A stretch of DNA of 64,000 nucleotides from an uncultured Bacteroidales bacterium (lineage in GTDB: Bacteria; Bacteroidota; Bacteroidia; Bacteroidales; FEN-979). Below the pieces are notes generated by a model, which saw only the letters and a program-made list of their open reading frames with translations, searched no databases and was not told the DNA's origin. The translations under genes were made by a program, and so were the position numbers. The stretch is taken from contig CAIYJU010000183.1 of NCBI GenBank assembly GCA_903926565.1, forward strand, positions 1-64,000, given 5' to 3'. The first letter of the stretch is position 1, and every line of letters starts with the position of its first letter. Positions 21,461 to 55,849 of the stretch are shown piece after piece.

Positions 21461-21464
21461 GGAA

Positions 21465-21494
21465 GTGTTAAGTGATTAAGTGTTAAGTGTTAAG
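21465..21494. repeat. Short tandem repeat at the 3' end of tmk
   Basis: Words of the type GTGTTAAG are repeated four times (one as TGATTAAG) between the convergent permease and tmk genes. On the minus strand the repeat supplies the last residues (LTLNT) and stop codon of tmk, so it has probably extended or replaced the original gene end. Confidence 0.6.
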
Positions 21495-25730: not shown

Positions 25731-25849
25731 AAATATCAAAATGCAAAATGCAAAATGCAAATGCAAAATGCAAATATCGGGGGATTATGATCGTAGATCA
25801 ATAATTTTGACATTTGGTTTTGCAATCTGCATTTGGAATTATTAAGACA
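25731..25849. repeat. nuo-cluster palindrome, copy 2 (nuoD-nuoE gap)
   Basis: The left arm repeats ATGCAAA several times (AAAATGCAAAATGCAAAATG then CAAATGCAAAATGCAAATATC). The right arm is AATTTTGACATTTGGTTTTG..CAATCTGCATTTGGAATT. It spans the complete gap and ends exactly at the nuoE ATG. The left arm is longer than in the other copies by extra ATGCAAA units. Confidence 0.85.
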
Positions 25850-29915: not shown

Positions 29916-30491
29916 ATGAAGAACTTAACAAACAGGTCTAAAATAGTTTCGAACAAAAAGATGTCTTTCCGGGAAAGGATTTACTTCCCGGCGATTCTTG
30001 GCGGAATGCGCATTACCTTTGGGCACCTGTTCCGCCGGAAGACCACTGTTCAGTATCCTGAGGTAACACGTGAATTTTCTGATATTTATCGGGGAAAACA
30101 TGTGCTGAAGCGGGATGACGAAGGACGGGAACGGTGTACTGCCTGCGGACTTTGTGCAGTTGCCTGCCCGGCTGAAGCGATAACCATGGTGTCGGCCGAA
30201 CGGAAGCCGGGCGAAGAGCACCTTTACAGGGAAGAGAAATATGCCATAGTTTATGAAATCAACATGCTGCGGTGTATTTTCTGCGGAGATTGCGAAGAGG
30301 CATGTCCGAAAGAGGCCATCTTCCTGACGCCGGAAATTGTGAAGTCGGAATACCAGCGCGACAGGTTCATCTATGGCAAAGATGTACTGGTTGAGCCTGC
30401 TGACCCGGCAAAACGGGTCGATGTTTCAAAGAGGCAAACGGCGAAAGTGCTTGAATTTAAGAAAGATAAGAGATATAAACATAATAAATAA
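29916..30491 (+). CDS. nuoI: NADH-quinone oxidoreductase subunit I
   Basis: The 191-residue protein has two ferredoxin-type [4Fe-4S] motifs, CTACGLCAVACP and CIFCGDCEEACP, that carry clusters N6a and N6b between NuoG and NuoB. The N-terminal amphipathic part (FPAILGGMRITFGHLFRRKTTVQYP) is typical. The ATG at 29916 follows the palindrome's right arm directly. nuoJ starts 2 bp after its stop. Confidence 0.96.
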   Translation: MKNLTNRSKIVSNKKMSFRERIYFPAILGGMRITFGHLFRRKTTVQYPEVTREFSDIYRGKHVLKRDDEGRERCTACGLCAVACPAEAITMVSAERKPGEEHLYREEKYAIVYEINMLRCIFCGDCEEACPKEAIFLTPEIVKSEYQRDRFIYGKDVLVEPADPAKRVDVSKRQTAKVLEFKKDKRYKHNK

Positions 30492-30493
30492 GG

Positions 30494-30994
30494 ATGTTCA
30501 CACAATACATCTTCCATTTTCTCAGCGTCATGGCCCTGTTTTCGGCAGTGATGGTGCTTGCGTCAAAAAAACCAATCCATTCGGTTTTGTTTCTGACAAT
30601 GACCTTTTTTGCAATTGCAGGTCACTATGTATTGCTGAATGCCCAGTTCCTGGCAGTTGTGCATGTAATCGTTTATGCCGGTGCCATCATGGTGCTGTTC
30701 CTGTTTACGGTGATGCTGCTGAACCTTAACAAAGACGAAAGGTCACCAAAGCCGTTATGGGTCAATATTATGGCTTTTATTGCCGGCGGCATGCTGATGC
30801 TTACCCTGATCGGTATTTTCAGGGGGTATGACATTCAGTCGCTGCAGGATCCGATGAGCACCCAGATAGGATTGGTTAAAAATCTTGGAAAAATACTCTA
30901 TCATGACTACCTGATACCGTTTGAATTATCGTCGGTGTTGTTTTTAACTGCGATGGTTGGGGCGGTGCTTTTAGGGAAGAAGGAGCAGATCTAA
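30494..30994 (+). CDS. nuoJ: NADH-quinone oxidoreductase subunit J
   Basis: The 166-residue membrane subunit has five predicted helices, with the conserved third-helix region HVIVYAGAIMVLFLFTVMLLNL that contains the pi-bulge important for coupling. It ends VGAVLLGKKEQI. Immediately after the stop begins the inverted-repeat unit that carries the four-helix-bundle gene, separating nuoJ from nuoK. Confidence 0.96.
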   Translation: MFTQYIFHFLSVMALFSAVMVLASKKPIHSVLFLTMTFFAIAGHYVLLNAQFLAVVHVIVYAGAIMVLFLFTVMLLNLNKDERSPKPLWVNIMAFIAGGMLMLTLIGIFRGYDIQSLQDPMSTQIGLVKNLGKILYHDYLIPFELSSVLFLTAMVGAVLLGKKEQI

Positions 30995-31491
30995 ATGAAT
31001 ATCGAATATTGAATATCGAATATTGAATATCGAATGTTGAATATCGAATGTTGAATCCAGAACTGAGGAGAGACAATCTGTGAACGAGGAGAAAAAATAT
31101 GATTTAGAAGATCGGCTTATTACTTTTGCTGTAATGATCGCCAATATGTCTGAAAACTTACCAGAAACAATGTATGGCAGATATATTTGTGGTCAGATAA
31201 TTCGGTCTGCGACTTCGCCGGCATTAAATTATGGTGAGGCCAAAAGTGCGGAGTCTTTGAACGATTTTATCCATAAGATGAAGATTTGCCTGAAAGAGTT
31301 GAGGGAAACCCTTGTTGCCTTAAAAATAATTCAGAAAAAACCTTTAATCAGAAATACTGAAACTGTGGCAATTGGACTTCAGGAATGTAATGAACTAATT
31401 GCAATATTTGTAAAAAGTATCCAAACATCAGAGAAACGCAAAACGCCTAAATAGTTCGATATTCGTTATTCAATATTCGATATTCGTTATT
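30995..31491. mobile_element. Inverted-repeat unit enclosing a four-helix-bundle protein gene
   Basis: The left end (30995-31056) is built from repeats of GAATATCGAATATT and GAATATCGAATGTT; the right end (31455-31491) reads TTCGATATTCGTTATT twice with CAATATTCGATATTCG between. The right end is an imperfect reverse complement of the left, with a 19-bp exact core (GAATATCGAATATTGAATA). The right arm starts directly after the gene's stop codon. The unit is about 500 bp and sits exactly between nuoJ and nuoK, an intrusion in an otherwise conserved gene order. Whether it moves is not known. Confidence 0.7.
31080..31454 (+). CDS. Four-helix-bundle protein (23S rRNA intervening-sequence protein family)
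   Basis: The 124-residue protein has the family pattern: an N-terminal helix (YDLEDRLITFAVMIANMSENLP), the signature GRYICGQIIRSATSPALNYGEA, the helix DFIHKMKICLKELRETLVAL, and a basic tail. Relatives are encoded in intervening sequences inside 23S rRNA genes and include the Avd accessory protein of diversity-generating retroelements; no reverse transcriptase is near. The likely start is GTG at 31080 with AGGAGAG 7 bases upstream. The gene is enclosed in inverted repeats and inserted between nuoJ and nuoK, so it should be transcribed with the operon although it has no link to complex I. Confidence 0.88.
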   Translation: MNEEKKYDLEDRLITFAVMIANMSENLPETMYGRYICGQIIRSATSPALNYGEAKSAESLNDFIHKMKICLKELRETLVALKIIQKKPLIRNTETVAIGLQECNELIAIFVKSIQTSEKRKTPK

Positions 31492-31506
31492 AAAATAATA
31501 TAATAA

Positions 31507-31824
31507 ATGGATATACCTACAAACATCCCGATCCAGTATTACCTCGTCTTTTGCTCTGTCCTTTTCAGCATCGGCGTAATCGGCGTGCTCATCAAACGCA
31601 ACGCCCTGGTGATCCTGATGTCGATAGAGTTGATGATCAATTCGATCAATCTTTTGCTTGCAGCATTTTCAGCCTATAACAACGATCCGGCAGGACAGAT
31701 CTTCGTCTTCTTCATCATGGTTGTGGCTGCAGCAGAAGTGGCGATCGGGCTGGCCATTGTGGTGCTCATTTATCGCACGACGCATTCGATTGATATAAAC
31801 GTACTTAATAAACTTAAATGGTAA
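31507..31824 (+). CDS. nuoK: NADH-quinone oxidoreductase subunit K
   Basis: The 105-residue protein has three helices with the two buried glutamates of the family, in LMSIELMINSINLLL and VAAAEVAIGLAIVV, which take part in proton transfer. Normal length. It follows the four-helix-bundle unit and precedes palindrome copy 4. Confidence 0.96.
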   Translation: MDIPTNIPIQYYLVFCSVLFSIGVIGVLIKRNALVILMSIELMINSINLLLAAFSAYNNDPAGQIFVFFIMVVAAAEVAIGLAIVVLIYRTTHSIDINVLNKLKW

Positions 31825-31944
31825 TTCGGAAAATTCAAAATTCAAATTGCAAAGGCAAATATCAAAATATTTGTTCTGCTTAACCTACCACCAAATTTTT
31901 ATATTTGACTTTGCTATCTGCAATTTGAATTCATTTTTAAAACT
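31825..31944. repeat. nuo-cluster palindrome, copy 4 (nuoK-nuoL gap)
   Basis: Left arm AAATTCAAAATTCAAATTGC..AAAGGCAAATATCAAAATATTT, right arm AAATTTTTATATTTGACTTT..GCTATCTGCAATTTGAATTC. It fills the gap and ends about 10 bp before the nuoL ATG. It contains TATATTTG (a TAnnTTTG match) in the right arm, so it might act as an internal promoter. Confidence 0.85.
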
Positions 31945-33855
31945 ATGAACCTGACCTTTGTTGTTTTTTTAATTCCAATATTTCCGCTTCTGGGATTCCT
32001 GATCCTTGGGATGGGCTTTCGTTCCATCCCCAAAAAAGTCACCTCGATCCTGGGCCCGGGCACGGTGCTTTTATCATTTATCTTCTCCCTCTTTACTTTT
32101 TTCAATGTTCACAATTTCGCTGGTTCACCAACTCAAACGCTCTTTACCTGGATCCACACCGGCTCCCTTCAGATTCCTTTCGCCTTCCTCATAGATCCCC
32201 TGTCGGTATTGATGCTGCTGATCGTTACAGGCGTTGGTTTCCTGATACATGTTTATTCGGTTGGTTACATGAAAGAGGACCCGGGGTACGGCCGGTTCTT
32301 TGCCTACATGAACCTCTTCGTCTTCTTCATGCTGCTGCTTGTTCTTGGCGCCAATTATCCGATCATGTTCATCGGCTGGGAAGGGGTGGGACTCTGTTCC
32401 TATCTCCTCATTGGCTTCTGGTTCAAAAATCATGATTATAACAATGCCGCAAAAAAGGCATTCATCATGAACCGCATCGGAGATCTTGGTTTTCTTCTTG
32501 GAATGTTTTTGATATTCAACACGTTCAGTTCACTTTCGTTTGATCAGGTTTTTCAACAGGCAAAGGCCATGCCGATGGGAGATCCGACAATCATCGCCAT
32601 CACCCTGCTGCTTTTCATCGGGGCGGTCGGAAAGAGTGCGCAGATTCCGCTTTATACCTGGTTGCCCGACGCCATGGCAGGCCCAACACCGGTTTCAGCA
32701 CTCATCCATGCTGCAACCATGGTCACTGCAGGGGTTTACATGATCGCCCGGTCGAATATCCTCTACGTGCTGGCTCCGACAACAATGTCCGTTATCGGAA
32801 TTACAGGACTTGCAACCGCCTTGTTTGCAGCCAGCATTGCGATCTTTCAGAATGACATCAAAAAAGTGCTGGCCTATTCCACCATCAGCCAGCTTGGTTA
32901 TATGTTTGTGGGACTGAGTGTTGGTGCTTTCACCGGTGCCATGTTCCACCTCACCACCCATGCCTTCTTCAAAGCGCTTCTCTTTCTGGGTGCCGGGAGT
33001 GTGATCCATGCACTTGGCGGGGAACAGGATATCCGAAACATGGGCGGACTGCGAAGCAAACTTCCCAAAACTTACTGGACATTTCTCATTGCCACCATTG
33101 CCATAGCAGGAATTCCGCCATTGTCGGGTTTCTTTTCCAAAGATGAAATCCTTTTGCACCTGTTTGAACACTCCTCCCTCCTCTGGATCATTGCCGTAGT
33201 CGGCTCGCTGATGACCGCGTTTTACATGTTCCGCCTGCTTTACCTGACATTTTTCAGAAGTTTCCGAGGAACAGATGAACAAATGCATCATCTCCATGAA
33301 TCACCCAGGGTGATGACCACTCCGCTGATCATCCTTGCCATTCTGGCAGCGTTTGGCGGATTGCTTAACCTGCCGGAAATTTTCAATGGAGGAAACTCGC
33401 TCTCGGGCTTCCTGGCCCCCGTTTTCGCCGATTCGGCTGTCCTGGTTACACCGGAAACCCCGATGTCACTAAGTACCGAATTGTTGCTGATGGGCATCAC
33501 CCTGATAGTTGTACTTGGCATGGTATTCCTTGCATATTTCCGCTTTGTTAAAAATGAACCGGAACTGCTTCCGGATGGCGCCAAACGGCCTTCCCTGGTG
33601 CAGTTAATGATTAATAAATATTATATCGACGAACTGTATGACTATATCATTTCCAAACCGATTCTCTGGCTGTCAAAGGTTTTTCATGAAGTTGTCGAGA
33701 TTCGCTTCATCGACCGCCTCGTGAACGGGGTGGGCAACATGGTTGTTTGGACCGGCAATACCGTTCGTTTCATCCAAACCGGAAATGTAGGTTTTTACAT
33801 GTTCATCATGATTTTGGGGATCATCCTGATCCTTTTTCTTAACATCCTGATCTGA
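31945..33855 (+). CDS. nuoL: NADH-quinone oxidoreductase subunit L
   Basis: The 636-residue antiporter-like subunit has the conserved WEGVGLCSYLLIGFW, the proton-pathway region LYTWLPDAMAGPTPVSALIHAATMVTAGVYMIAR (in parts) and KVLAYSTISQLGYM, then a C-terminal amphipathic arm (about residues 550-600). It is the most distal proton pump of the membrane arm. Length is normal. The ATG at 31945 opens MNLTFVVFLIPIFPLLGF. nuoM starts 3 bp after the stop. Confidence 0.97.
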   Translation: MNLTFVVFLIPIFPLLGFLILGMGFRSIPKKVTSILGPGTVLLSFIFSLFTFFNVHNFAGSPTQTLFTWIHTGSLQIPFAFLIDPLSVLMLLIVTGVGFLIHVYSVGYMKEDPGYGRFFAYMNLFVFFMLLLVLGANYPIMFIGWEGVGLCSYLLIGFWFKNHDYNNAAKKAFIMNRIGDLGFLLGMFLIFNTFSSLSFDQVFQQAKAMPMGDPTIIAITLLLFIGAVGKSAQIPLYTWLPDAMAGPTPVSALIHAATMVTAGVYMIARSNILYVLAPTTMSVIGITGLATALFAASIAIFQNDIKKVLAYSTISQLGYMFVGLSVGAFTGAMFHLTTHAFFKALLFLGAGSVIHALGGEQDIRNMGGLRSKLPKTYWTFLIATIAIAGIPPLSGFFSKDEILLHLFEHSSLLWIIAVVGSLMTAFYMFRLLYLTFFRSFRGTDEQMHHLHESPRVMTTPLIILAILAAFGGLLNLPEIFNGGNSLSGFLAPVFADSAVLVTPETPMSLSTELLLMGITLIVVLGMVFLAYFRFVKNEPELLPDGAKRPSLVQLMINKYYIDELYDYIISKPILWLSKVFHEVVEIRFIDRLVNGVGNMVVWTGNTVRFIQTGNVGFYMFIMILGIILILFLNILI

Positions 33856-55455: not shown

Positions 55456-55849
55456 TGTGTAAAAATTACTGCTGATGCGTTAACTTTTTATATTCTACTA
55501 TAAATTATTGATACATAAAACAATATGGTAATTCTGACATTTTTTGATTTGAATTGACCGTGAGTCAGCAAACTTAATATTGGCTTATAAACCTGAACAA
55601 TTCATGAAATTTATCTCTGTGGCTCTCTGTGCTGTTTCTCTGTGGTTCTCTGTGAAACAAAATTACACAGAGGTTCACTGAGAAGACACGGAGAACCACA
55701 GAGGGAAACCTAATGTAACATAATTTGTGAGTTGACCGGATTAAATATCATTGATATAACTACTTAAAAAACATTTTATCGGTTAGAAAGCCAGGGAAAT
55801 TACATTCTGATAATACCTTAAGTTAAACGCATCAGCACTGTGTAAAAAT
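55456..55849. mobile_element. MITE-like segment with terminal inverted repeats and flanking direct repeats
   Basis: Terminal inverted repeats TGCTGATGCGTTAACT (55470-55485) and AGTTAAACGCATCAGCA (55821-55837) differ by one base. Just outside each is the direct repeat TGTGTAAAAAT (55456-55466 and 55839-55849). The inside has no ORF and holds another palindrome at 55613-55707. This has the form of a small non-autonomous transposable element with an 11-bp target duplication, though no transposase or second copy is in the window. Confidence 0.55.
55613..55707. repeat. Palindromic element built on CTCTGTG words, nested in the MITE-like segment
   Basis: Left arm ATCTCTGTGGCTCTCTGTGC then TGTTTCTCTGTGGTTCTCTG; right arm ACACAGAGGTTCACTGAGAA then GACACGGAGAACCACAGAGG. 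The arms are imperfect reverse complements around AAACAAAATT. No gene lies within; the gap between genes (55377-56021) otherwise shows only AT-rich sequence and a promoter. Confidence 0.8.

Follow-up and report, generated by a model that had tools for sequence, protein, structure and literature searches.

Intervening sequences (IVSs) of rRNA are the closest described relatives of the element reported here; for these and for all other published systems our statements refer to the cited sections of each paper. The IVS of Coxiella burnetii rRNA, 428 nt in length, contains an IVP open reading frame (ORF) with three copies of the heptamer GACAGAT upstream, and in vitro RNase III cleaves its 28-bp terminal stem (PMC4990558). 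The origin and function of IVSs are called unclear in the same account. Scattered arrays of tandem heptamers are also known (PMC4692102, PMC4679880, PMC2670836), and the Xanthomonas GGGAATC repeats occur in inverted pairs as well (PMC4692102, PMC2670836). Rehm et al. describe heptamer repeats as generally without association to mobile elements (PMC4692102). The resemblance of PF05635 proteins to Avd of diversity-generating retroelements (DGRs) is already in print (PMC10053308), and the references of that paper include Lin 2006, the title of which speaks of five four-helix bundles.

The unit described below consists of one IVP gene between two inverted heptamer arrays. With 23S rRNA IVSs it shares the single IVP ORF, terminal inverted repeats that can form a stem, heptamers upstream of the ORF, and its approximate size (~500 nt, against 428 nt in Coxiella). 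It differs from them in its location in a protein operon, its longer arrays on both sides, its intact gene, and the scattered solo arrays that accompany it; cleavage by RNase III is reported for the Coxiella IVS in vitro and is a possibility for the nuoJ-nuoK unit. REP/RAYT systems (PMC3116915) are similar in having a single gene beside a repeat, scattered copies of that repeat, and different repeat groups by different genes. RAYT, however, is a Y1 (HUH) transposase, whereas the single gene of the unit encodes an IVP four-helix bundle, and REPs are palindromes, whereas the repeats here are tandem heptamers, and six solo arrays folded alone formed as a rule no stable hairpin. Cyanobacterial STRR and Xanthomonas GGGAATC repeats resemble the solo arrays in being tandem heptamers scattered between genes and in some cases within them (PMC4692102, PMC2670836); the cited sections name no associated gene, whereas the unit here carries an IVP.

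Heptamer arrays, rRNA IVSs and REP/RAYT are known already; the association of IVP genes with arrays in general, and the tie between word and protein, appear to be new. A literature search, with most subscription journals outside its scope, found no report of IVP genes generally lying between inverted heptamer arrays matched to the protein. The nearest precedent is the set of heptamers upstream of one rRNA IVS ORF (PMC4990558), and heptamers beside the ORF, reported for that one rRNA IVS, are perhaps not a defining trait of IVSs.

The unit between nuoJ and nuoK

The window is the whole stretch of 64,000 nucleotides that was analysed, from an uncultured Bacteroidales bacterium. In it nuoJ, the IVP ORF and nuoK all lie on the + strand (Table 1). 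The IVP ORF scored 43.2 bits against PF05635 (cut-off 33.8) and 70.8 bits against TIGR02436 (cut-off 24). It is the only gene of the unit (30996-31494), and PF05635 is the only Pfam match there, in agreement with a preliminary description that had placed a small IVP-type gene, foreign to complex I, within the nuo operon.

Table 1. Features of the nuoJ-nuoK region, with positions in the window
Feature	Position	Strand	Role or evidence
nuoJ	30494-30994	+	Upstream host gene; PF00499, 143.9 bits
Upstream arm, 8 tandem heptamers and a partial ninth	30996-31056	+	Left end of the putative element
IVP/S23 four-helix-bundle gene, GTG start, 124 aa	31080-31454	+	PF05635, TIGR02436, predicted structure
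Downstream arm, ~5 heptamers in the reverse orientation to those upstream	31455-31494	-	Right end of the putative element
nuoK	31507-31824	+	Downstream host gene; PF00420, 102.9 bits

The consecutive heptamers of the left arm read GAATATC, GAATATT or GAATGTT (consensus word GAATATY) and end in a tail, and the right arm holds 5.3 copies at period 7. The best arm pairs extend over 34-40 nt with 83-91% complementarity. The long imperfect inverted repeats reported earlier are accordingly present as inverted arms, and each arm is a tandem 7-nt array instead of half of a single long palindrome. A 24-nt arm word, with at most 3 mismatches, matched 6 times in the 64-kb window, every time in these two arms, and 0 times in 100 dinucleotide shuffles. 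When positions 30985-31510 were folded as RNA, z was -4.86, with ~34 bp of pairing between the arms. By this folding model the arms can pair in the nuo mRNA, and processing of the stem by RNase III and an approach of nuoJ to nuoK through it, both proposed earlier, are possibilities. The arrangement is that of an IVS, an IVP ORF between inverted repeats capable of forming a stem. Rfam gave no rRNA match at 30400-32000, where its only two matches were below threshold, and a promoter/terminator scan returned matches near expectation.

The predicted structure of the IVP (AF2, pLDDT 89.6) has four helices arranged as a four-helix bundle. Its nearest folds in Foldseek were 2RLD and 2GSC (query TM 0.69-0.81), each with chains A-E, followed by the Avd structures 4DWL, 8UBE and 8UB7 (probability 0.95-1.0, weak E of 0.15-0.73, 12% identity), which represent Avd both free and in the reverse-transcriptase particle. 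The shared fold does not extend to the layout of a DGR: the neighbours are nuoJ and nuoK, and the single-gene unit lacks both a reverse transcriptase and a template/variable repeat pair. Two RVT_1 matches in the window's own genome lie on contigs C186 and C52, apart from the contig of the element, and no link between these genes and the element was found.

Filled and empty sites

In the window's family nuoK was detected in 41 of 43 genomes, in some solely as a distant paralogue, and the site was compared at 30 loci, in all of which nuoJ adjoins nuoK. An IVP homologue lay between the two genes at 12 loci. Its frame was full-length in eight (L034, L038, L045, L052, L053, L057, L061 and L062) and broken or shortened in four (L036, L043, L048 and L058). 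Six other loci had short spacers without an IVP, of 13 nt (L055, L060) or 31-45 nt (L042, L050, L051, L056), and further spacers contained other words or arm-like remnants, the latter judged by eye and not blind. The preliminary description had called for such a comparison of empty sites and had named fixation of the gene between nuoJ and nuoK as an observation against its proposal. The gene is not fixed, and its IVS-like layout in a protein operon is present in some relatives and absent from others. With this variable presence, the unit is an insertion that is gained and lost and no complex I gene. Estimates of dN/dS for the IVPs at this site, computable for only 10 of 28 pairs and at saturated dS (1.3-2.8), were 0.044-0.137.

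Retention of the full-length frame in eight genomes from three genera would suit a regulatory device of the host specific to nuo, made up of the hairpin and the small protein. At the other 22 of the 30 loci, however, the IVP is absent, broken or replaced, and the same architecture recurs at unrelated sites and in other phyla. We consider such a device very improbable, the variable presence at nuoJ-nuoK having largely refuted it.

Two further spacers deserve mention. In one (at locus L035, 1-3303) GAATAT-like outer repeats enclose a GxxExxY gene that is interrupted by a single in-frame stop. The other (L040, 406 nt) has GAATAT outer repeats around a TCTGTG/CACAGAG hairpin and no IVP; the hairpin is apparently a nested element of another class.

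At one site in ten Mesorhizobium genomes, the unit was present in seven (481-570 nt between flank probes) and the site was empty in two (55 and 60 nt, no array). The remaining genome had 213 nt at the site, with inverted CGGCAGT arms and no IVP. The ends of the Mesorhizobium element coincide with the arms, and the number of GGCAGTA units in orthologues was 3-13 upstream and 3-11 downstream. The IVP, of 122 codons, was intact in 7/7 genomes with a median dN/dS of 0.056 (maximum 0.11, 21 pairs), and is under strong purifying selection. Nostoc edaphicum has a unit, on the opposite strand, in its nrdB-nrdA spacer, and in Calothrix NIES-4105 these genes are separated by a 40-nt spacer without the unit. 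Together, the comparisons in Mesorhizobium, in Nostoc and Calothrix, and in the window's family showed gene and arms entering a site as one insertion, with junctions that abut the arms. Inspection by eye of two filled/empty pairs, from related, not near-identical, genomes, revealed no target-site duplication. Inverted ends and a unit without the gene (L347) recall MITEs and insertion sequences, from which the element differs in its variable end sequences, in its lack of a transposase, and in that no target duplication was recognised by eye.

Inverted arms and their words around IVP genes

The sample of family IVPs consisted of the best-scoring places, the three genes of the window's own genome, the nuoJ-nuoK loci, and others within the loci examined. 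Removal of duplicates, matches below 70 aa, and two with a short flank reduced 110 HMM matches to 88, about 10 of which are orthologues at nuoJ-nuoK. For each gene the 350 nt upstream were aligned to the reverse complement of the 350 nt downstream, with a cut-off score of ≥15. Repeats around other family members, whose absence had been named beforehand as speaking against the element, were found: 75 of the 88 distinct genes had inverted arms (median score 25). Pairing the upstream flank of one locus with the downstream flank of another gave 29 passes in 880, direct instead of inverted comparison of the same flanks 6 in 88, and other ORFs 0 in 40, or 4 in 216 in a larger set. A chance origin of the arms is ruled out by the shuffles and by the cross-locus, ORF, direct-orientation and permutation controls. 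Thirteen of the 88 genes fell below the cut-off, including the other two of the window's own genome (L001 and L003). A predicted pI >8 was found for 80/88.

Of the 75 armed loci, 47 had an upstream arm that fitted a period of 7 nt best, 23 one of 8 nt and five one of another length; in 71 the upstream arm had more G than C. The words vary by locus and include GAATATY, AGGCAAT, GATTAGS, CGTGACG, GCGGACAA, TTAAGTK and AATTGAC, among others; since they differ in this way, a transposon with fixed terminal inverted repeats is ruled out. In a test for mirrored order of the units p was ≤0.05 in 16 of 66 loci (9 more were skipped), with p biased low because the segments were chosen as the best-aligned ones. 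Among tandem neighbour genes 78 IVPs were co-directional and 27 opposite; 40 more lay between convergent or divergent neighbours and 18 were unassigned, all by crude longest-ORF gene calls. Sense orientation in the operon is favoured, and is no requirement.

The excess of 78 to 27 is one of the observations that would fit an RNA function as the primary one, in which the paired arms offer RNase III a stem to cut, so that the IVP mRNA is freed and the operon remains unharmed. Pairing of the nuoJ-nuoK arms over ~34 bp would agree with this, as would the stem, the GACAGAT heptamers and the in vitro cleavage of the Coxiella IVS (PMC4990558). Such a function needs neither a word linked to the protein across phyla nor solo unpaired arrays (31/36, see below), however, and the 27 elements antisense to their tandem neighbours, together with unequal unit numbers in the two arms (e.g. 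13 vs. 6 and 6 vs. 11), also weigh against it. We judge it unlikely.

Across the 75 armed loci protein identity was correlated with similarity of the arm word (r = 0.41; 2678 pairs without similar outer flanks). None of 2000 Mantel permutations reached this value (maximum 0.10), and with one arm reversed (antisense) the correlation was -0.14. This correlation points to recognition of the arm word by the IVP or to strict co-inheritance; against recognition, a subfamily and its word could be inherited together even if the protein does not bind it. A degenerate subfamily word was present in both arms of 11/14 NI[AS]EG[WY] IVPs vs. 5/74 other family IVPs. For the same subfamily both arms contained the word at 36/54 loci from other phyla and at 8/21 GTDB Bacteroidota loci. 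As 593 of 3000 random 250-nt windows also contain the word, one arm by itself proves little. As far as sequences tell, the word was shown to track the protein subfamily, not the site.

The loci from other phyla came from a GTDB sample that is no random draw: two peptide patterns, both from one subfamily, gave at least 479 candidates that were confirmed, and the best 80 of these make up the sample. Within these best 80, 48 loci passed the arm cut-off (period 7 in 43, period 8 in 5), or 43/75 once five loci of already counted genomes were left out, and the cross-locus control passed in 71/952. Armed loci were found in Pseudomonadota (17/20), Cyanobacteriota (4/4), Planctomycetota (4/5), Acidobacteriota (5/8), Bacteroidota (9/25, plus one mislabelled, 1/1), Halobacteriota (archaea, 2/4), Chloroflexota (1/3), Patescibacteria (1/2), and Deltaproteobacteria, Desulfobacterota, Armatimonadota and Saganbacteria (1/1 each); Spirochaetota, Sumerlaeota, Nitrospirota and one unclassified record gave 0/1 each. 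Phylum labels were drawn from record titles. Since many records are contigs of MAGs and the title of one (L264) is clearly mistaken, phyla with a single locus and the archaeal loci should be taken with care. The 20 of the 80 loci that were compared with Rfam gave no match at gathering score. IVPs were also present in 24 plasmid records, 22 of them cyanobacterial by name, and the three examined all had inverted heptamer arms (GGGAAAA, AGGGAAA and TAGGGAG). Arm words of cyanobacterial IVPs include TAGGGAG, GGGAAAA and CGGGAGT. A Xanthomonas plasmid record with GGGAATC arrays had two solo arrays and no IVP; arms of this word are predicted around the Xcc0516 gene (2GSC). The layout of a gene between inverted arrays recurs in many bacterial phyla and apparently also in some archaea.

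Solo arrays and the IVP-array relationship

The window's own genome, with its three IVP genes, gave 95 forward and 67 reverse matches to a GAATAT pattern (backwards control 0) and 155 to a slightly different one; the matches overlap, so that one array yields several. Of 36 arrays at the own-genome loci examined, 31 were without an inverted partner in the surrounding 700 nt. A looser pattern yielded 38 arrays at these loci, among them one GATTTAC array and both arms of the nuoJ-nuoK unit, and 22 of the 38 had exactly five units. This mode is sharper than would be expected from slippage alone, and if the IVP is a pentamer each of its subunits might correspond to one unit. When six solo arrays were folded as ssDNA, z was 0.22, -0.17, 0.67, -1.44, -2.19 and 0.99; as a rule no stable hairpin formed, with one borderline case. 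A logic comparable to REP/RAYT but with a different protein, also put forward in the preliminary description, is upheld by these scattered solo arrays of the same word and by the word's tracking of the protein subfamily; that interpretation as a whole is partly supported.

Open frames of ≥200 aa contained 13 of the 38 own-genome arrays. The two compared with orthologues are in-frame GAATAT arrays, at 731-768 and 2906-2943, of one murF-alr fusion gene (L184; Pfam domains Mur ligase and alanine racemase). At both positions the orthologues in the genus have other words (GCGTCAC, CGTAAAT, GTCCGCC, TCCGAAA) or lack an array that can be recognised. At another locus (L188, 1054-2405) one forward and one reverse GAATAT array flank an open frame of 1.3 kb that is not an IVP; these may be two independent solo arrays.

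The median number of GAATAT matches was 44.5 (3-180) in the 12 genomes whose nuoJ-nuoK spacer contains an IVP homologue and 2 (0-77) in the 18 without, uncorrected for kinship; status was assigned by the presence of an IVP tblastn match between nuoJ and nuoK, and medians were taken by hand. Five genomes had arrays without a close IVP (G017, G020, G023, G004 and G016, with 77, 129, 52, 42 and 40 matches), their best nuoJK-like IVP being 28-43% identical. Conversely, G027 kept the element with 3 matches vs. 5 in the backwards control. GATTAG matches in five genomes predicted beforehand from IVP arms numbered 100, 179, 100, 19 and 7, and in non-predicted genomes 74 (G041), 19 (G036) and at most 10 in the others; the backwards control is void for this word, which reads the same backwards.

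The solo arrays of the own genome outnumber its armed genes, the words found in the permissive loops of murF-alr change from species to species, and unit number varies between orthologues. These three observations would be expected if arrays arose independently, as slippage or repair repeats, and IVP genes inserted into or recombined between arrays already in place. Two Mesorhizobium and one Calothrix empty sites lack an array, however, the word correlates with the IVP at unrelated sites, and insertion into one directional array would not give inverted arms on both sides. We therefore regard prior arrays as rather improbable.

The unit at 30996-31494 is, in our reading, probably an IVS-type element outside rRNA, with the heptamer arrays as its ends and as the probable recognition site of the IVP. 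The basic IVP would recognise the arm word, as DNA or RNA, and its solved relatives crystallised as five chains. Together with an enzyme supplied in trans, the IVP would copy arrays to new tolerated sites, and the gene-bearing unit as a whole would be copied more rarely; a reverse transcriptase is a candidate enzyme because the IVP fold is that of Avd, and the own genome has its two RVT_1 matches. At nuoJ-nuoK the element would be tolerated in its co-directional position, and its stem may be cut by RNase III upon transcription. Against this reading stand the 13/88 unarmed family IVPs and the pass rate of only 9/25 in GTDB Bacteroidota, the five genomes with arrays and no close IVP, and the element with 3 matches in G027. 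It also counts against it that no transposition was observed and no target-site duplication recognised by eye.

More tentatively, IVPs and arrays of tandem words may form a two-component mobile repeat system, in which each subfamily reads its own heptamer, spreads solo arrays and rides between inverted arrays, across bacteria and apparently some archaea. There is a real chance that this is a distinct class of two components rather than a variant of the IVS. If true, it would explain the origin of rRNA IVSs and the scattered heptamers (cyanobacterial STRRs, Xanthomonas GGGAATC) whose source is left unexplained in the cited sections of PMC4692102 and PMC2670836. Two puzzles, the function of IVPs with the movement of IVSs (PMC4990558) and the source of heptamer repeats (PMC4692102), would then become one question. 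If the IVP reads the word, a small, phylum-spanning class of elements joins the catalogue, arrays account for in-frame peptide insertions as well as intergenic repeats, and cyanobacterial array genotyping gains a mechanism.

A comparable scheme may apply to GxxExxY genes, with another class of word. GxxExxY genes (TIGR04256; L114-L143 and L035) had inverted arms at ≥15 in 18/30 cases (cross-locus 39/870), mostly with words of period ~10-11 (ACACAGAG.., ACACGAAG..), a few of the 18 not being tandem. In the window itself, the nuoK-nuoL spacer (31825-31944) contains a second hairpin, with arms at 31832-31868 and 31895-31931 that are 84% complementary and made of CAAATT/GCAAA-type words. Other short arrays lie at 21463-21494, 25737-25775 and 55614-55654 (AAGTGTT, CAAAATG and TCTCTGTGGT); the AAGTGTT array resembles the TTAAGTK arms of other IVPs, and the TCTCTGTGGT array resembles the GxxExxY arm class.
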